Positions 29,979 through 48,869 of a stretch of DNA of 64,000 nucleotides are shown here, piece after piece. A program made the position numbers and the translations under genes. Source of the stretch: Marinomonas balearica (GTDB lineage Bacteria; Pseudomonadota; Gammaproteobacteria; Pseudomonadales; Marinomonadaceae); the NCBI RefSeq assembly GCF_004362145.1, contig NZ_SNXC01000014.1, positions 62,001 to 126,000 of the forward strand. Reading direction: 5' to 3'. The stretch's first letter is position 1. Every line of letters starts with the position of its first letter. The notes under the pieces were generated by a model. It saw only the letters and a program-made list of their open reading frames with translations, made no database searches and was not told the origin of the DNA.

Positions 29979-30108
29979 CCAATAACTGTTGCTCTTTAAA
30001 AATTGATATAGAAAACAACGGGTTACGATATAGGGAAAAAACATAGGTAAAAGTAGATATTTTTACCTAACTCTATATTGTGACTCGTTTTTTTGCTGAT
30101 AAACTATT
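29979..30108 (+). promoter_or_regulatory. CRISPR leader
   Basis: AT-rich 130-bp leader between cas6f and repeat 1. It contains a boxA at 29990-30001 and an inverted repeat TAGGTAAAA (30044-30052) / TTTTACCTA (30061-30069). Because boxA lies only 11 bases after the cas6f stop, the transcript carrying it must start inside cas6f or further upstream. A TTGAAA at 29914-29919 is a weak -35 candidate. Leader side is set by the degenerate last repeat at the other end. Confidence 0.75.
29990..30001 (+). promoter_or_regulatory. boxA antitermination element in the CRISPR leader
   Basis: TGCTCTTTAAAA matches 11 of 12 bases of the E. coli rrn boxA (TGCTCTTTAACA). BoxA RNA is bound by NusB-NusE and recruits the Nus/SuhB complex, which prevents Rho termination on untranslated RNA. 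Such elements are known before CRISPR arrays in other proteobacteria, which fits a 2.7-kb non-coding array. Confidence 0.75.
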
Positions 30109-32837
30109 GTTCGCTGCCGCACACGCAGCTTAGAAAATCAAAGCGTCCCAATTTGGTTTTGGTTTAGAGTTCGCTGCCGCACACGCAGCTTAGAAACACG
30201 CGACAAAATACCGGTTTGCACTGAGCCTGTTCGCTGCCGCACACGCAGCTTAGAAACATAAAGTAACGCCAACCTTCTAAAATAGAAGGTTCGCTGCCGC
30301 ACACGCAGCTTAGAAACCGCGTACACACATTGGTCGGGCGAGAAATTCGTTCGCTGCCGCACACGCAGCTTAGAAATGCAATTACAACACGTTGTGATTT
30401 TTCGATTAGTTCGCTGCCGCACACGCAGCTTAGAAAAGTCGCAGACACAACAGTTGGTTATTAATACATGTTCGCTGCCGCACACGCAGCTTAGAAAACA
30501 TAACGCTATTGAACCAATTAAAACAGTGTGTTCGCTGCCGCACACGCAGCTTAGAAATTTACCTACTATATCGCCAACGTCTTTGTACTGTTCGCTGCCG
30601 CACACGCAGCTTAGAAATCATAGCTAGACTCTTGCTGGTCGTCGAGATTGTTCGCTGCCGCACACGCAGCTTAGAAAACGCTAAAAAAAGGCGGGTTAAC
30701 TCACATGCCGTTCGCTGCCGCACACGCAGCTTAGAAACATGCGAGAGTTAATGCATCGTCGAATTCACCGTTCGCTGCCGCACACGCAGCTTAGAAAGAC
30801 GGAAACGCCACCGCCACCGCTTCTATTCTGTTCGCTGCCGCACACGCAGCTTAGAAAAGGGCGACAGTGAATGAGATATGGGCAGTGTGGTTCGCTGCCG
30901 CACACGCAGCTTAGAAAGCACTCGCGCATACTACCAATACACCCAAGCCGTTCGCTGCCGCACACGCAGCTTAGAAATGTTGTCGTACACAGCGGAAAGG
31001 AACCAATGCGTTCGCTGCCGCACACGCAGCTTAGAAATAGCTGGTATTCTGCAATCATTGCCCGATGTAGTTCGCTGCCGCACACGCAGCTTAGAAAATG
31101 AAACAATTGCGACGTAAAACCACGACCAGGTTCGCTGCCGCACACGCAGCTTAGAAAGCCAGCGCGTGTAATCATATCTGGTCGAGATTGTTCGCTGCCG
31201 CACACGCAGCTTAGAAACGAATAACCCAATCCAACCGCATCAGCGGTTTGTTCGCTGCCGCACACGCAGCTTAGAAAGGACATAAAAATGGGGGGTACTT
31301 GAATAAATTGTTCGCTGCCGCACACGCAGCTTAGAAAGTAAAATATACAGATATCTTCATCGCCGTCTAGTTCGCTGCCGCACACGCAGCTTAGAAAAAG
31401 CGTTGAGTGTTTTCGAGCGGCGTTTTAGCGTTCGCTGCCGCACACGCAGCTTAGAAAAACAAAGAACGAGCGGAACGTTTAGCAACTCGGTTCGCTGCCG
31501 CACACGCAGCTTAGAAAATCATATCGGCATTGCTGGTCACATTCTCAGAGTTCGCTGCCGCACACGCAGCTTAGAAAATTGGCCGAAGCGTTGCGCCGCT
31601 TAGAGCTTGGTTCGCTGCCGCACACGCAGCTTAGAAAATCATGTATGCGATTTTCGGTCTCATATTTGCGTTCGCTGCCGCACACGCAGCTTAGAAACGA
31701 TGTACCTGGTAGTGAAGTGGTGCTTGAATGTTCGCTGCCGCACACGCAGCTTAGAAAATGCATGGGTTTGAGTTACAGCGGAAATTGGCATTCGCTGCCG
31801 CACACGCAGCTTAGAAATAGCGCTAGACCGTCTCTTGATTCTTGGTATGGTTCGCTGCCGCACACGCAGCTTAGAAAACCAGGCGATTACTACTTGAATG
31901 CAGAAGCGAGTTCGCTGCCGCACACGCAGCTTAGAAATAGTTGCGGGCGTTGTTTTACACAAAGCTAAGGTTCGCTGCCGCACACGCAGCTTAGAAATTG
32001 CGTTACTTGTTCGGACGCGCCGTCTTCGAGTTCGCTGCCGCACACGCAGCTTAGAAATAATGTCACCTCAAAGACAATACAATCAATTGGTTCGCTGCCG
32101 CACACGCAGCTTAGAAAATTTACTAAAAAGGAAAATTGGGAATCGTTATGTTCGCTGCCGCACACGCAGCTTAGAAAGCCAGCATCATAAGCTGCAATCA
32201 CTGCCATTCGTTCGCTGCCGCACACGCAGCTTAGAAACAGCAAAAACCGGATCGAAAGCTAACCAAGAAGTTCGCTGCCGCACACGCAGCTTAGAAAGCA
32301 CTGCATTAACTCCAGTCGACGCACTGGGTGTTCGCTGCCGCACACGCAGCTTAGAAATATTGACCATTGATGTAAGGCAACGACGCATGGTTCGCTGCCG
32401 CACACGCAGCTTAGAAATGAATGTCTCCATCCAGCGTGATTACAAAGTGGTTCGCTGCCGCACACGCAGCTTAGAAATTAGCATTTCGCCGCATATTATC
32501 TTCAAGGTCGTTCGCTGCCGCACACGCAGCTTAGAAAAGATAGTAATTGGGATAAAGCAAAGGCTTATTGTTCGCTGCCGCACACGCAGCTTAGAAATGT
32601 TGCATTGTGCCAAAGGTTTTGCATAAGCTGTTCGCTGCCGCACACGCAGCTTAGAAATAACGTGACGTGTCACGTTATAGGAATTCGGAGTTCGCTGCCG
32701 CACACGCAGCTTAGAAATGTTACACGTCCAAATTCGCCTTCAAACAGGTGTTCGCTGCCGCACACGCAGCTTAGAAAAAACTTCGGGAACGAGCATCACG
32801 CCGTCGGCTGTTCGCTGCCGCACACGCAGTTTGGTAT
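30109..32837 (+). CRISPR. Type I-F CRISPR array, 46 repeats and 45 spacers
   Basis: Repeats are 28 bp, start GTTCGCTGCC and end GCTTAGAAA, with a 60-bp period and 32-bp spacers. Spacer 6 (30437-30469) is 33 bp, shifting the phase by one base. All repeats I read are identical except the one at 31790, which begins with A instead of G, and the last (32810-32837), which diverges after position 19. This marks the leader-distal end on the right. The hairpin in each repeat is GCTGC / GCAGC with loop CGCACAC, shifted compared with canonical I-F repeats. The array is transcribed on the plus strand, like the cas genes. Confidence 0.98.
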
Positions 32838-34645: not shown

Positions 34646-34687
34646 TCTTGTGTCTGTTACAGGCTGTGAACATTAGGGAGTCAGCAG

Positions 34688-35617
34688 TTGGCGATTATTT
34701 TGGCGGTTTTGCCTGTATTTTTGTTGTTGGTTTTGGGTGTGTTTTTGAGACGAATCCGGTTTTTACCGGACGATACGTGGGTTGGGTTCGATCGTCTTGT
34801 TTATTGGGTTTTGTTTCCAGCATTGTTGTTCAATAAAACCAGTCAGATAGATTTGCATAGCCCAATGGTGCCAACGTACGCAACGCTCTTGCTAGGCGCG
34901 TTGGTGGTGACGGCGGCGGTCAGTTTTTTGGGTGGTTTTTTACTGAAGCTTGCGCCTCCGCAGAATTCGTCATTGCTTCAAGCCAGTGTGCGTTATAACA
35001 CGTTTATTACGTTGGCCATTGCTCAGCAGTTGTATGGTTCAGAAGGGTTGGTTCTGGCGACCATTGGTGCGGCGGTGTTGATTCCGACGATCAATGTGTT
35101 TTTGGTGATCAGTATGGTGTTGATGCACGGCAATAAAGAAGCATCGGTTGTTAAGTTGGTTGTTAAAGAGCTGTTTCGTAACCCGTTGGTGTTGTCGATT
35201 GCGTTAGGGCTTAGTGTTAATGCATTGGGTGTATCACCGGTGCTGATCTTAACGGATATGACTCAGATTTTATCGCAGGCCACTTTACCGCTTGTTTTGT
35301 TGGCCGTTGGCGCGAGTGTGCGGTTAGAAGCGGTGAAAGATGTCGGGAAGGCGTTTGTCTGGGGAAGTCTCTCTCGAATGCTGGTGTTCCCTGCGGTGAT
35401 TTTTCTGTTGTGTATTCAATTTGAGGTGAGCGGTTTGCCAGCGGCGATTGTGTTGTTGTTTGGTTTTTCTCCGACGGCAACATCGGCTTATGCGTTGGCT
35501 AGGCAGTTGGGGGGCGATGCTCCGCAGATGGCGGCGCATATTACGCTTCAAACGGGGCTGTGTTTGGTGACGATTCCGTTGAGCATTGCGGTTACGCAGT
35601 GGTGGTTGGCGGGCTAG
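34688..35617 (+). CDS. AEC (auxin efflux carrier) family transporter
   Basis: A 309-residue membrane protein with about 10 hydrophobic segments, starting AIILAVLPVFLLLVLGVFLRR, here split as AIILAVLPVF and LLLVLGVFLRR. It is of the AEC/YfdV type, which exports small carboxylates or similar solutes. The start codon is TTG at 34688, supported by a strong AGGGAG site 7 bases upstream. It is probably co-transcribed with the preceding LysR gene. A bidirectional terminator follows (35635-35668). Confidence 0.88.
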   Translation: MAIILAVLPVFLLLVLGVFLRRIRFLPDDTWVGFDRLVYWVLFPALLFNKTSQIDLHSPMVPTYATLLLGALVVTAAVSFLGGFLLKLAPPQNSSLLQASVRYNTFITLAIAQQLYGSEGLVLATIGAAVLIPTINVFLVISMVLMHGNKEASVVKLVVKELFRNPLVLSIALGLSVNALGVSPVLILTDMTQILSQATLPLVLLAVGASVRLEAVKDVGKAFVWGSLSRMLVFPAVIFLLCIQFEVSGLPAAIVLLFGFSPTATSAYALARQLGGDAPQMAAHITLQTGLCLVTIPLSIAVTQWWLAG

Positions 35618-46890: not shown

Positions 46891-46928
46891 TAAAAAAAGC
46901 CGAAGCTTATTAAGCTTCGGCTTTTTTT
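46891..46928. terminator. Bidirectional intrinsic terminator galU/suhB
   Basis: GCCGAAGCTTA / TAAGCTTCGGC stem flanked by A7 and T7 runs, between converging galU and suhB. Confidence 0.93.
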
Positions 46929-46956: not shown

Positions 46957-47745
46957 TTAGTTGAAGTGCTTATTTAGCAACGGTAATAAGTTTTTGATCA
47001 TTCTTGGGTTTGCACACATAACATGACCAGATGTCACACTTGGAGCGCCATCAAAACCTGAAGCAATACAGCCTGATTCTTTTGCAATGAAGATACCTGC
47101 TTGCATTTCCCATTCATGAAGCTCCAATCCCCACGCAGCATCAACGCGACCTGCGGCAACGTTAGCAAAAGTAAGCGCTGGTGCATCTTGCATTACGGCA
47201 CGGCCGCCTTTTTCTGCGATTTCTTGCAATGCTGCTAGCTGGCTTGCTATGTGAGGTTGAGTCGCTGAAGTGCCTGGGAACTGAGTCGAAACAGTCGCCT
47301 TTTCTACTAAACGTTCTTGGCTGGTTCTAATGCGGGAATTGTTGAGGTAAGCGCCTCGCCCTTTAGAGGCGTAAAATTCGTCACGCGTTTTTGGATTAAC
47401 AATAACGGCGTGCTCTACTTTGTCTGCAACAACATAAGTTATCGTGGTAACAAATCCGCATAGACCAAGTGTAAAAATGTGTTGGCCTTGTATAGCATCA
47501 ACAATCCATTCGCCTTCTTCACCATTTTGTACAGTGCCTTGTAAGCGAGTGGTAATAGAATCGGTAGGGTATGCTTTTTCTAAAATTTGAACGATCGTGC
47601 GTTCAGCATTCATACAAATATTGTTGTAGATCTCAGCAGCCTGTTGACCTTGTTCTTTATCAAACAAGACTTTCTCTTGTGCGTGTTGAATAAAATCAGA
47701 TGCGGCGCGCGCAGCTTTTAAAGCGACATTAATTTTGGGTTGCAT
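46957..47745 (-). CDS. suhB: SuhB homologue with degenerate inositol-monophosphatase active site
   Basis: A 262-residue protein of the inositol monophosphatase fold. It is divergent from trmJ, the usual place of suhB in gammaproteobacteria. The catalytic motif expected as WxxDPxDGTxNF reads WIVDAIQGQHIF (D83 kept, Q86 in place of the second Asp). The distal WDxAAG motif reads WEMQAG (E213), and the expected GEE glutamate region reads TTRLQG. Three of four metal ligands are therefore changed, and phosphatase activity is unlikely. E. coli SuhB also works in the Nus antitermination complex, a role that does not need catalysis. A boxA lies in this gene's own leader (47817-47828). Confidence 0.88.
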   Translation of the reverse strand: MQPKINVALKAARAASDFIQHAQEKVLFDKEQGQQAAEIYNNICMNAERTIVQILEKAYPTDSITTRLQGTVQNGEEGEWIVDAIQGQHIFTLGLCGFVTTITYVVADKVEHAVIVNPKTRDEFYASKGRGAYLNNSRIRTSQERLVEKATVSTQFPGTSATQPHIASQLAALQEIAEKGGRAVMQDAPALTFANVAAGRVDAAWGLELHEWEMQAGIFIAKESGCIASGFDGAPSVTSGHVMCANPRMIKNLLPLLNKHFN

Positions 47746-47816
47746 TGAAATACCGTAATAATTGATTCAATAAGTATATGCAGATATCGTCTTTTGAACG
47801 ACATGTTGCGACAAAG

Positions 47817-47828
47817 TGTTAAAGAGCG
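47817..47828 (-). promoter_or_regulatory. boxA in the suhB 5' leader
   Basis: On the minus strand this reads CGCTCTTTAACA, identical to the E. coli rrn boxA except the first base. It lies about 71 bases before the suhB start. In E. coli suhB is reported to be autoregulated by the Nus complex through such a leader element, so the same control is likely here. Confidence 0.75.
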
Positions 47829-48149: not shown

Positions 48150-48869
48150 ATGACAGAAAATATTCGAATAGTATTAGTCAATACATCGCATCCGGGGAAC
48201 ATTGGTGGTGCCGCGCGTGCGATGAAAAACATGGGACTGTCTAAATTAGTGTTGGTAGCCCCAAAAGTATTTCCAAGTGATGAGGCAATAAGTAGAGCGT
48301 CGGGGGCGTCAGACCTTCTAGAAAACGCAATTGTTGTCGATACGCTGGAAGAGGCCATTTCTGACTGTCAGTTGGTGATTGGTACAAGTGCTCGCGAGCG
48401 ACATATTCCATGGCCTCTTTTAGATCCCAGAGAATCTGCGGAACTCACGTATAAAGAAGGCCTTGAAACTGCGTTTGTGTTTGGGCGTGAAGATCGCGGC
48501 CTGACAAACGAAGAGCTTCAACGTTGTCATTATCATGTTCATATCCCTTCCGTTGAGTCATTCAGCTCGCTGAACCTTGCAACCGCTGTTCAAGTTATTG
48601 CTTATGAATTACGTATGAAGCATTTATCGTTGGGCGAAGAGCCTATTGTCAGCTCTAAATGGGATCTACCTGCTGCGACAAGTCAGCAAATGGATCATAT
48701 GCTTGAGCATCTTGAGAAAGTTTTGGGTGATATTGAATTCCTAGATCCAAAAGCACCACGACAAGTAATGACCCGCTTTAGAAGGCTTTATCAAAGAGCG
48801 CAATTAGATCAGCAAGAAATGGGAATGCTACGAGGTGTGCTAACTGCAATCGAGAAGCAGTATCGATAG
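48150..48869 (+). CDS. trmJ: tRNA (cytidine/uridine-2'-O-)-methyltransferase TrmJ
   Basis: A 239-residue SPOUT methyltransferase that methylates the ribose at tRNA position 32. The start VLVNTSHPGNIGGAARAMKNMG (split VLVNTSHPGNIG / GAARAMKNMG), the FVFGREDRGLTNEE motif (about residue 110) and IPSVESFSSLNLATAVQVIA (about 131-150) are diagnostic. The iscR gene that usually follows is absent; a terminator ends the unit. Confidence 0.95.
   Translation: MTENIRIVLVNTSHPGNIGGAARAMKNMGLSKLVLVAPKVFPSDEAISRASGASDLLENAIVVDTLEEAISDCQLVIGTSARERHIPWPLLDPRESAELTYKEGLETAFVFGREDRGLTNEELQRCHYHVHIPSVESFSSLNLATAVQVIAYELRMKHLSLGEEPIVSSKWDLPAATSQQMDHMLEHLEKVLGDIEFLDPKAPRQVMTRFRRLYQRAQLDQQEMGMLRGVLTAIEKQYR

Follow-up and report, generated by a model that had tools for sequence, protein, structure and literature searches.

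In most relatives SuhB both cleaves sugar phosphates and assists the transcription of ribosomal RNA. The suhB gene of Marinomonas balearica encodes a protein that resembles an inositol-phosphate phosphatase most of whose metal ligands have been replaced, which raises the question of what selection still keeps in it. The gene was analysed in a window of 64,000 nucleotides, by which we mean the whole stretch of DNA under study, where it is arranged with its neighbours as follows.

46957..47745, minus strand: suhB orthologue, 262 amino acids, ATG start; IMPase fold with R67, L68, Q86 and E213, D83 being kept (open reading frame, profiles and predicted structure)
48150..48869, plus strand: trmJ, the divergently oriented gene used as synteny marker for suhB (open reading frame and synteny)
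46892..46928, minus strand: terminator-like stem and T run directly 3' of suhB (one found versus 1.3 expected in shuffles)

The protein scored 93.4 bits against Pfam PF00459 (Inositol_P), passing the cut-off of 27. Its best NCBIfam match, NF008027/PRK10757, gave 129.3 bits over positions 1-258 of 267 and did not reach the cut-off of 332, whereas intact reference SuhB copies (n = 30) scored 298-339 bits. None of 48 Marinomonas genomes passed this cut-off, which alone is a weak test because only 17 of 391 genomes of the order pass it and many intact copies fall below. The gene lies divergent to trmJ in 47 of 47 Marinomonas orthologues, as does E. coli suhB, identifying it as the SuhB orthologue by position. 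The top PDB sequence matches were P. aeruginosa SuhB (9j90 and 8wdq), followed by other SuhB/IMPase entries. An AlphaFold model built on a 79-sequence alignment had a mean pLDDT of 94.7 (a model from 12 sequences, with a pLDDT of 51.2, was set aside); it was closest to the SuhB structures of P. aeruginosa and E. coli (Z 35-37, rmsd 1.8-2.4 Å over 250-261 residues), and one of its best structural matches was a SuhB chain from 6tqn, an rrn anti-termination complex. Full length, synteny and best PDB matches thus agree with an earlier sequence-only reading of this DNA, which had assigned the gene to SuhB through the suhB/trmJ pair. Scanning for sigma-70 promoters gave none on the strand that encodes suhB.

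The active site has changed at most of its key positions. We take Glu67, Asp84, Asp87 and Asp212 (E. coli numbering) to be the metal ligands, as in IMPase structures. In the window protein, GEE has given way to R67-L68, the DPxDG motif reads DAIQG (D83 kept, Q86, Q88), and WDxAAG reads WEMQAG (W212-E213); in E. coli numbering, the replacements are D44C, E67R, E68L, D87Q, T89Q and D212E, with D84 kept. The alignment bore out Q86, E213 and the absence of GEE, the residues on which the sequence-only reading had been built. Among the 47 suhB genes obtained from 48 Marinomonas genomes (G041, 77% complete, yielded one weak match only, E 9e-15), all 47 carry R, D, Q and E at positions 67, 84, 87 and 212, and none therefore retains the ligand set of an active IMPase. 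C44, R67, L68, D84, Q87, Q89 and E212 are all fixed in the 47. Because this tetrad and the leader boxA described below are both fixed across 47 genomes, chance or artefact was ruled out as their source.

We then searched 391 genomes of the order with the SuhB model. Across families f1, f6, f7, f15, f20, f36, f37 and f38, no match in the genomes sampled was stronger than 4e-71, and certain genera of f39 and f44 had weak matches as well. A weak score alone does not prove loss, since intact members of f44 and f35 had best E values as weak as 1e-67 to 1e-72 and, in otherwise intact families, three genomes (G174, G239 and G346) lacked a good match and two (G152 and G153) lacked any. The genes adjoining trmJ were therefore fetched and aligned to score the ligands. 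Sixty-five genomes were searched by trmJ and 63 were examined with upstream DNA, of which 59 had SuhB there; it was not found beside trmJ in G187, G114, G222 and G275, and for G081 and G167 the adjacency was taken from coordinates. Five paralogue rows (L126, L135, L136, L137 and L139) were dropped before counting.

This yielded 103 trmJ-adjoining SuhB sequences with lost ligands in the order, compared with 101 others retaining E-D-D-D, 58 of which came from named genomes, many of them Pseudomonas. Three ligands are missing in 85 of the lost sequences, two in 11 and all four in 7. Loss is complete in f1 (47/47), f6 (11/11), f7 (2/2), f15 (3/3, very degenerate), f20 (5/5), f36 (9/9), f37 (9/9) and f38 (9/9), and partial in f39 (3/9, all from genus g77), f44 (4/8, genera g44 and g63) and f8 (1/2, the lost ORF being truncated by the contig end). 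The inactivity of f37 is less sure because E67 is kept in 5/9 and D87 in 9/9. Replacements differ among families: position 84 is F in f20, and position 87 is V, I, A or L in f44. R184 is absent from every lost sequence and T89 from all but one. Arginine occupies position 67 in all lost sequences of f1 (47), f36 (9), f38 (9) and f44 (4) and in one of f8, as well as in 1/9 of f37 and 1/11 of f6; it occurs in none of f7, f15, f20 and f39. Named genomes with lost ligands, counted outside the 103 although some are the same genomes again, belong to Marinomonas, Nitrincola, Marinobacterium, Neptunomonas, Amphritea, Thalassolituus and Salinicola, and metagenome-assembled genomes (MAGs) with lost ligands to Oceanospirillaceae, Saccharospirillaceae and Oleiphilaceae. 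Judged by shared residue patterns, which provide the link from family numbers to names, the lost families would be Halomonadaceae-, Nitrincola-, Thalassolituus- and Saccharospirillaceae-like, among others. The proposal had been to look for the loss throughout the genus and its neighbours; by these alignments it is wider than first guessed, taking in all 47 Marinomonas sequences and every sequence examined from seven further families.

Several sequences are recorded here in their own right. Outside the order, Photobacterium sanguinicancri (Vibrionaceae, locus L254) has a trmJ-adjoining SuhB with E67A and D212E and an intact DPxDGT, a partial loss. The f15 ORFs L209, L210 and L228 adjoin trmJ and are hardly recognisable as SuhB (38 bits in two), possibly representing an end stage of SuhB decay; one f15 genome, G061, has an intact IMPase elsewhere. 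Suh­B-trmJ pairs of gammaproteobacterial type were found on contigs labelled as Verrucomicrobiaceae, Desulfobulbaceae and Flavobacteriaceae MAGs (L272, L282 and L292), where an error of labelling or binning is possible; in L282, ligands are gone too (K67, N212).

The number of independent losses was estimated from two trees. The RpoB tree comprised 71 rows (rpoB was sought in 77 genomes, matched in 72 and used from 70, G283 and G072 being partial) and placed the lost members of f44, f39 and f8 amid intact relatives. When all 40 lost genomes were constrained to a single clade, the log-likelihood fell by 371 (p-AU 0.00021), and a single origin for all the losses was rejected. A clade joining f44 to the deep group was likewise rejected (148 lower, p-AU 0.00014). 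The deep group itself, 32 genomes of f1, f6, f7, f15, f20, f36, f37 and f38 that was named after the RpoB tree had been inspected, was not rejected as one clade (p-AU 0.73). In the first RpoB tree these families formed a grade at the root, implying up to seven losses; we counted them as one because a tree constrained to keep them together surpassed the free quick search by 19.3 log-likelihood units. For the SuhB tree we masked 15 columns of the active site and omitted f15 and 39 of the 47 f1 rows; the 53 deep lost rows then formed a single clade (SH-aLRT 98). This tree grouped the lost rows of f44, f39 and f8 with their own families' intact copies (SH-aLRT 99, 98 and 93, respectively), which gives no support to the horizontal acquisition of a dead suhB by these families. 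Since the RpoB and masked SuhB trees agree, these phylogenies indicate that ligand loss arose separately at least four times within the order.

Retention across the lost families indicates what has been given up and what has been held. Means were taken over nine lost families, f15 and f8 being left out. Active-site positions 44, 68 and 89 were retained at 0.08 on average versus 0.63 for the 56 positions invariant in intact SuhB, and only 0.025% of randomly drawn triples fell that low (0.02% when the order genomes alone served as reference); these three positions play no part in the definition of the lost set but were chosen after the alignment had been seen. The corresponding test on the four ligands (0.26 versus 0.67, 0.011) is partly circular because the same residues define the lost set. 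Several of the decayed positions are non-ligands. By contrast with the active-site triple, P3, W81, R139, R141, E222 and G224 were retained at 1.0 after rounding. K251 and L254, which form the NusA-AR2 interface of SuhB (PMC6614801), are invariant in 47/47 Marinomonas sequences, and across the lost families their family-weighted retention was 0.79 and 0.42, respectively. In 11 pairs of Marinomonas suhB genes dN/dS was 0.009-0.042, with dS above 1 in two, values that place the gene under strong purifying selection as judged by codon comparison. The window genome also encodes NusB, and its NusA carries two C-terminal repeats.

The suhB leader carries two further features.

47817..47827, minus strand: boxA GCTCTTTAACA, 71 nt upstream of the suhB start codon, with C before it at 47828 (motif scan and genus conservation)
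47780..47809, minus strand: leader hairpin with a 7-bp stem and a GC...GC base, between boxA and the start codon (pairable in most of the 47 leaders)

The motif GYTCTTTAANA matches the window three times versus 0.63 expected, and 3 of 100 shuffles reach three, so the matches in the window alone are not compelling. Conservation in the genus is what establishes the suhB boxA as real: the exact 11-mer GCTCTTTAACA is present in 45/47 Marinomonas leaders and GYTCTTTAANA in 47/47, always 63-80 nt from the start, whereas shuffled leaders would give 0.6/47 even with one mismatch allowed. What had been described from the letters as a near-perfect boxA is hence a perfect one, conserved genus-wide. Exact boxA sites also occur in the leaders of f36 (9/9) and f38 (7/9), and sites within one mismatch in f6 (7/11) and f7 (2/2); with up to one mismatch, the counts are 0/5 in f20, 2/9 in f37, 1/4 in f44, 0/3 in f39 and 0/3 in f15. 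Leaders of intact members of the order had an exact boxA in 0/30 and one with a single mismatch in 6/30. Being absent from several lost lineages and rare in intact ones, boxA does not track ligand loss. On contig 14 the GCTCTTTAACA 11-mer recurs in the stretch that separates the 16S gene from the 23S gene (L019). Four more sites in the window genome (L013, L014, L015 and L016) had no rRNA family match within 1.5 kb, and some or all may be chance, as a reversed-pattern control gave three sites in the genome. A further match, in the window at 35161-35171 (minus strand), falls inside an open frame of 315 codons that runs in the opposite direction (34670-35614, plus) and is probably chance.

The hairpin was chosen from the same 47 leaders on which it was then tested, and RNAalifold predicted no pairs in them. 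Its cells were paired in 85% of cases versus 26-46% with the partner slid, and its covariation score was 0.36 versus 0.08-0.17. Doubly changed cells did not discriminate (32, versus 33 for the +1 slide), and its seven doubly changed pairs were reached by 58 of 500 shuffles. We regard the hairpin as likely but not proved; if formed, it would bring boxA closer to the start codon. According to the excerpted text of PMC5725501, boxA-bound Nus factors repress suhB in E. coli, and by analogy Marinomonas suhB is probably boxA-autoregulated as well.

A second boxA precedes a CRISPR array in the same window, as the sequence-only reading had pointed out.

29991..30001, plus strand: second boxA GCTCTTTAAAA, about 105 nt before the first repeat of the CRISPR array (motif scan)
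About 30107..32829, plus strand: CRISPR array in which the repeat core GTTCGCTGCCGCACACGCAG occurs 45 times in exact form (repeat count)

The CRISPR leader is a possible client of the Nus complex; boxA ahead of CRISPR arrays has been published (Stringer et al. 2020, as cited in the part of PMC7862264 drawn upon).

Collectively, the sequences argue for a protein whose ligands are gone, which is under purifying selection beside trmJ behind a genus-wide leader boxA, and whose fold is predicted to be kept. We consider it likely that this SuhB is no longer an inositol-phosphate phosphatase and persists as a pseudoenzyme, a structural transcription factor of the Nus complex that is probably boxA-autoregulated. 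The idea that SuhB is kept only as a Nus factor, advanced in the sequence-only reading, is thereby supported: it fits K251, the boxA leader, the C-terminal repeats of NusA, NusB and the E. coli literature (PMC4807359, in excerpt). SuhB would join NusA, NusB/E and NusG on RNA polymerase at boxA RNA, for which the rRNA operons, the suhB leader and the CRISPR leader are candidates, and the complex on suhB's own boxA would limit suhB expression as in E. coli. The loss of ligands in the genus and several related families suggests that selection keeps the transcription role only. If catalysis is indeed dispensable for the Nus role, repeated loss is what would be expected.

The pocket might instead have been remodelled, giving an enzyme with altered metal or substrate, or a ligand binder that does not cut, with or without the Nus role. 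The fixation of the replaced residues in 47/47 Marinomonas sequences speaks for this, since it is unlike plain decay and implies that the pocket is under constraint. Fixation is also expected, however, if the residues merely pack or salt-bridge the old site; moreover, the lost families differ at these positions, some carrying hydrophobic residues, with no common new ligand set, and the near-universal disappearance of R184 and T89 fits remodelling poorly. We judge it unlikely. Alternatively, the Nus role may have been lost together with catalysis, leaving SuhB with an unrelated function, as the missing leader boxA in f20, f39 and f15 and the barely scoring f15 copies could suggest. Against this stand the boxA leaders kept in f1, f36 and f38, the conservation of K251 and other non-active-site positions across families, and the NusA repeats and NusB of the window genome, and we find this reading quite improbable.

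A paralogue could also have taken over the Nus role, the window suhB being a relic. Six genes of the IMPase family are present in the window genome; one is CysQ (254.7 bits, cut-off 228.8), and none of the six exceeds the SuhB or HisN cut-offs. A profile search of this genome thus found no second intact SuhB, whose presence had been named in advance as telling against a Nus-only SuhB. The best candidate, G000:C7:319168-319953, has intact motifs and scores higher against PRK10757 than the window protein (157 versus 129 bits), but it lacks the trmJ synteny, its alignment covers only 7-232 of 267 and so leaves out the C-terminal NusA-binding part, and the codon at which it probably starts overlaps the stop of the ORF before it on that strand, leaving it no leader of its own. 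In a survey of 17 genomes, picked mostly for having few matches, Marinomonas G037, G035 and G042 had only CysQ besides SuhB, and in G095, G243 and G340 (99-100% complete) the dead SuhB was the sole IMPase-family gene detected; the dead protein is therefore not tolerated merely through a live twin. As relics do not show dN/dS of 0.01-0.04 either, takeover by a paralogue is hardly credible, and we return to a Nus-only SuhB as the preferred reading.

That growth and catalysis are separable in E. coli is already in print (PMC4807359), as is boxA autoregulation of suhB (PMC5725501), both consulted in excerpt. In the former, the cold sensitivity of E. coli suhB was not associated with IMPase-defective mutants, and the excerpted text of this 2016 study left open the link between the enzyme and rRNA-transcription roles. 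Natural, recurrent loss of SuhB ligands is new so far as our literature search shows: in open-licence papers, supplements excluded, we found no report, by title and abstract, of SuhB ligand loss, and none of a SuhB pseudoenzyme or of Marinomonas SuhB, though earlier reports may exist, and an open-licence search for SuhB with Halomonas returned only matches that appear unrelated from their listing. That the active site has been lost repeatedly in nature, while the protein, the NusA contact and in several families the boxA leader were kept, offers an evolutionary answer to that question, namely that catalysis is dispensable and selection holds the Nus role. The dead SuhBs, and the live and dead pairs within single families (f44, f39 and f8), provide ready-made tools for testing it. 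For such proteins, annotation as inositol-1-monophosphatase on similarity alone would mislead.

Of the four independent losses that we count within the order, three show a change of E67 to R, and Arg67 in the deep clade, f44 and f8 suggests, as a hypothesis from sequence comparison, an exchange of arginine for metal. More speculatively, and with considerable doubt on our part, a large marine Pseudomonadales clade and at least three further lineages may have a Nus complex that works with metal-free SuhB, where arginine often replaces Glu67, the guanidinium group standing in for the metal and locking a Nus-competent state, so that antitermination would be independent of Mg2+ and inositol phosphate.

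Compared with known systems, the closest counterparts are the SuhB proteins of E. coli and P. aeruginosa, which act as Nus factor and IMPase (PDB 6ib7, 6ib8, 6tqn, 8wip and 8wdq). The window protein shares their length, a predicted fold alike over the whole chain and Lys251 and Leu254 of the NusA-AR2 interface, at 27-34% identity; Marinomonas suhB further shares with E. coli the trmJ neighbour and a leader boxA (PMC5725501, in excerpt). It differs in that the ligands E67, D87 and D212 are R, Q and E, with D44, E68 and T89 also replaced, and in that boxA lies 71 nt from the start with an intervening hairpin. In the excerpted account of Baniulyte et al. 2017 (PMC5725501), 34 of the 55 genera had a boxA within 50 bp of suhB, and in one genus it lay at 82 bp. 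Marinomonas has the same GYTCTTTAANA upstream of suhB, at 63-80 nt and thus outside that 50-bp filter. The boxA before the CRISPR array resembles that of Stringer et al. 2020, as relayed in the cited part of PMC7862264, in lying about 105 nt ahead of a long array, with no notable difference. Unlike the suhB described in the excerpts of PMC5725501, the Marinomonas boxA is mostly followed by a hairpin and the gene product lacks the ligands, and autoregulation here is a prediction.
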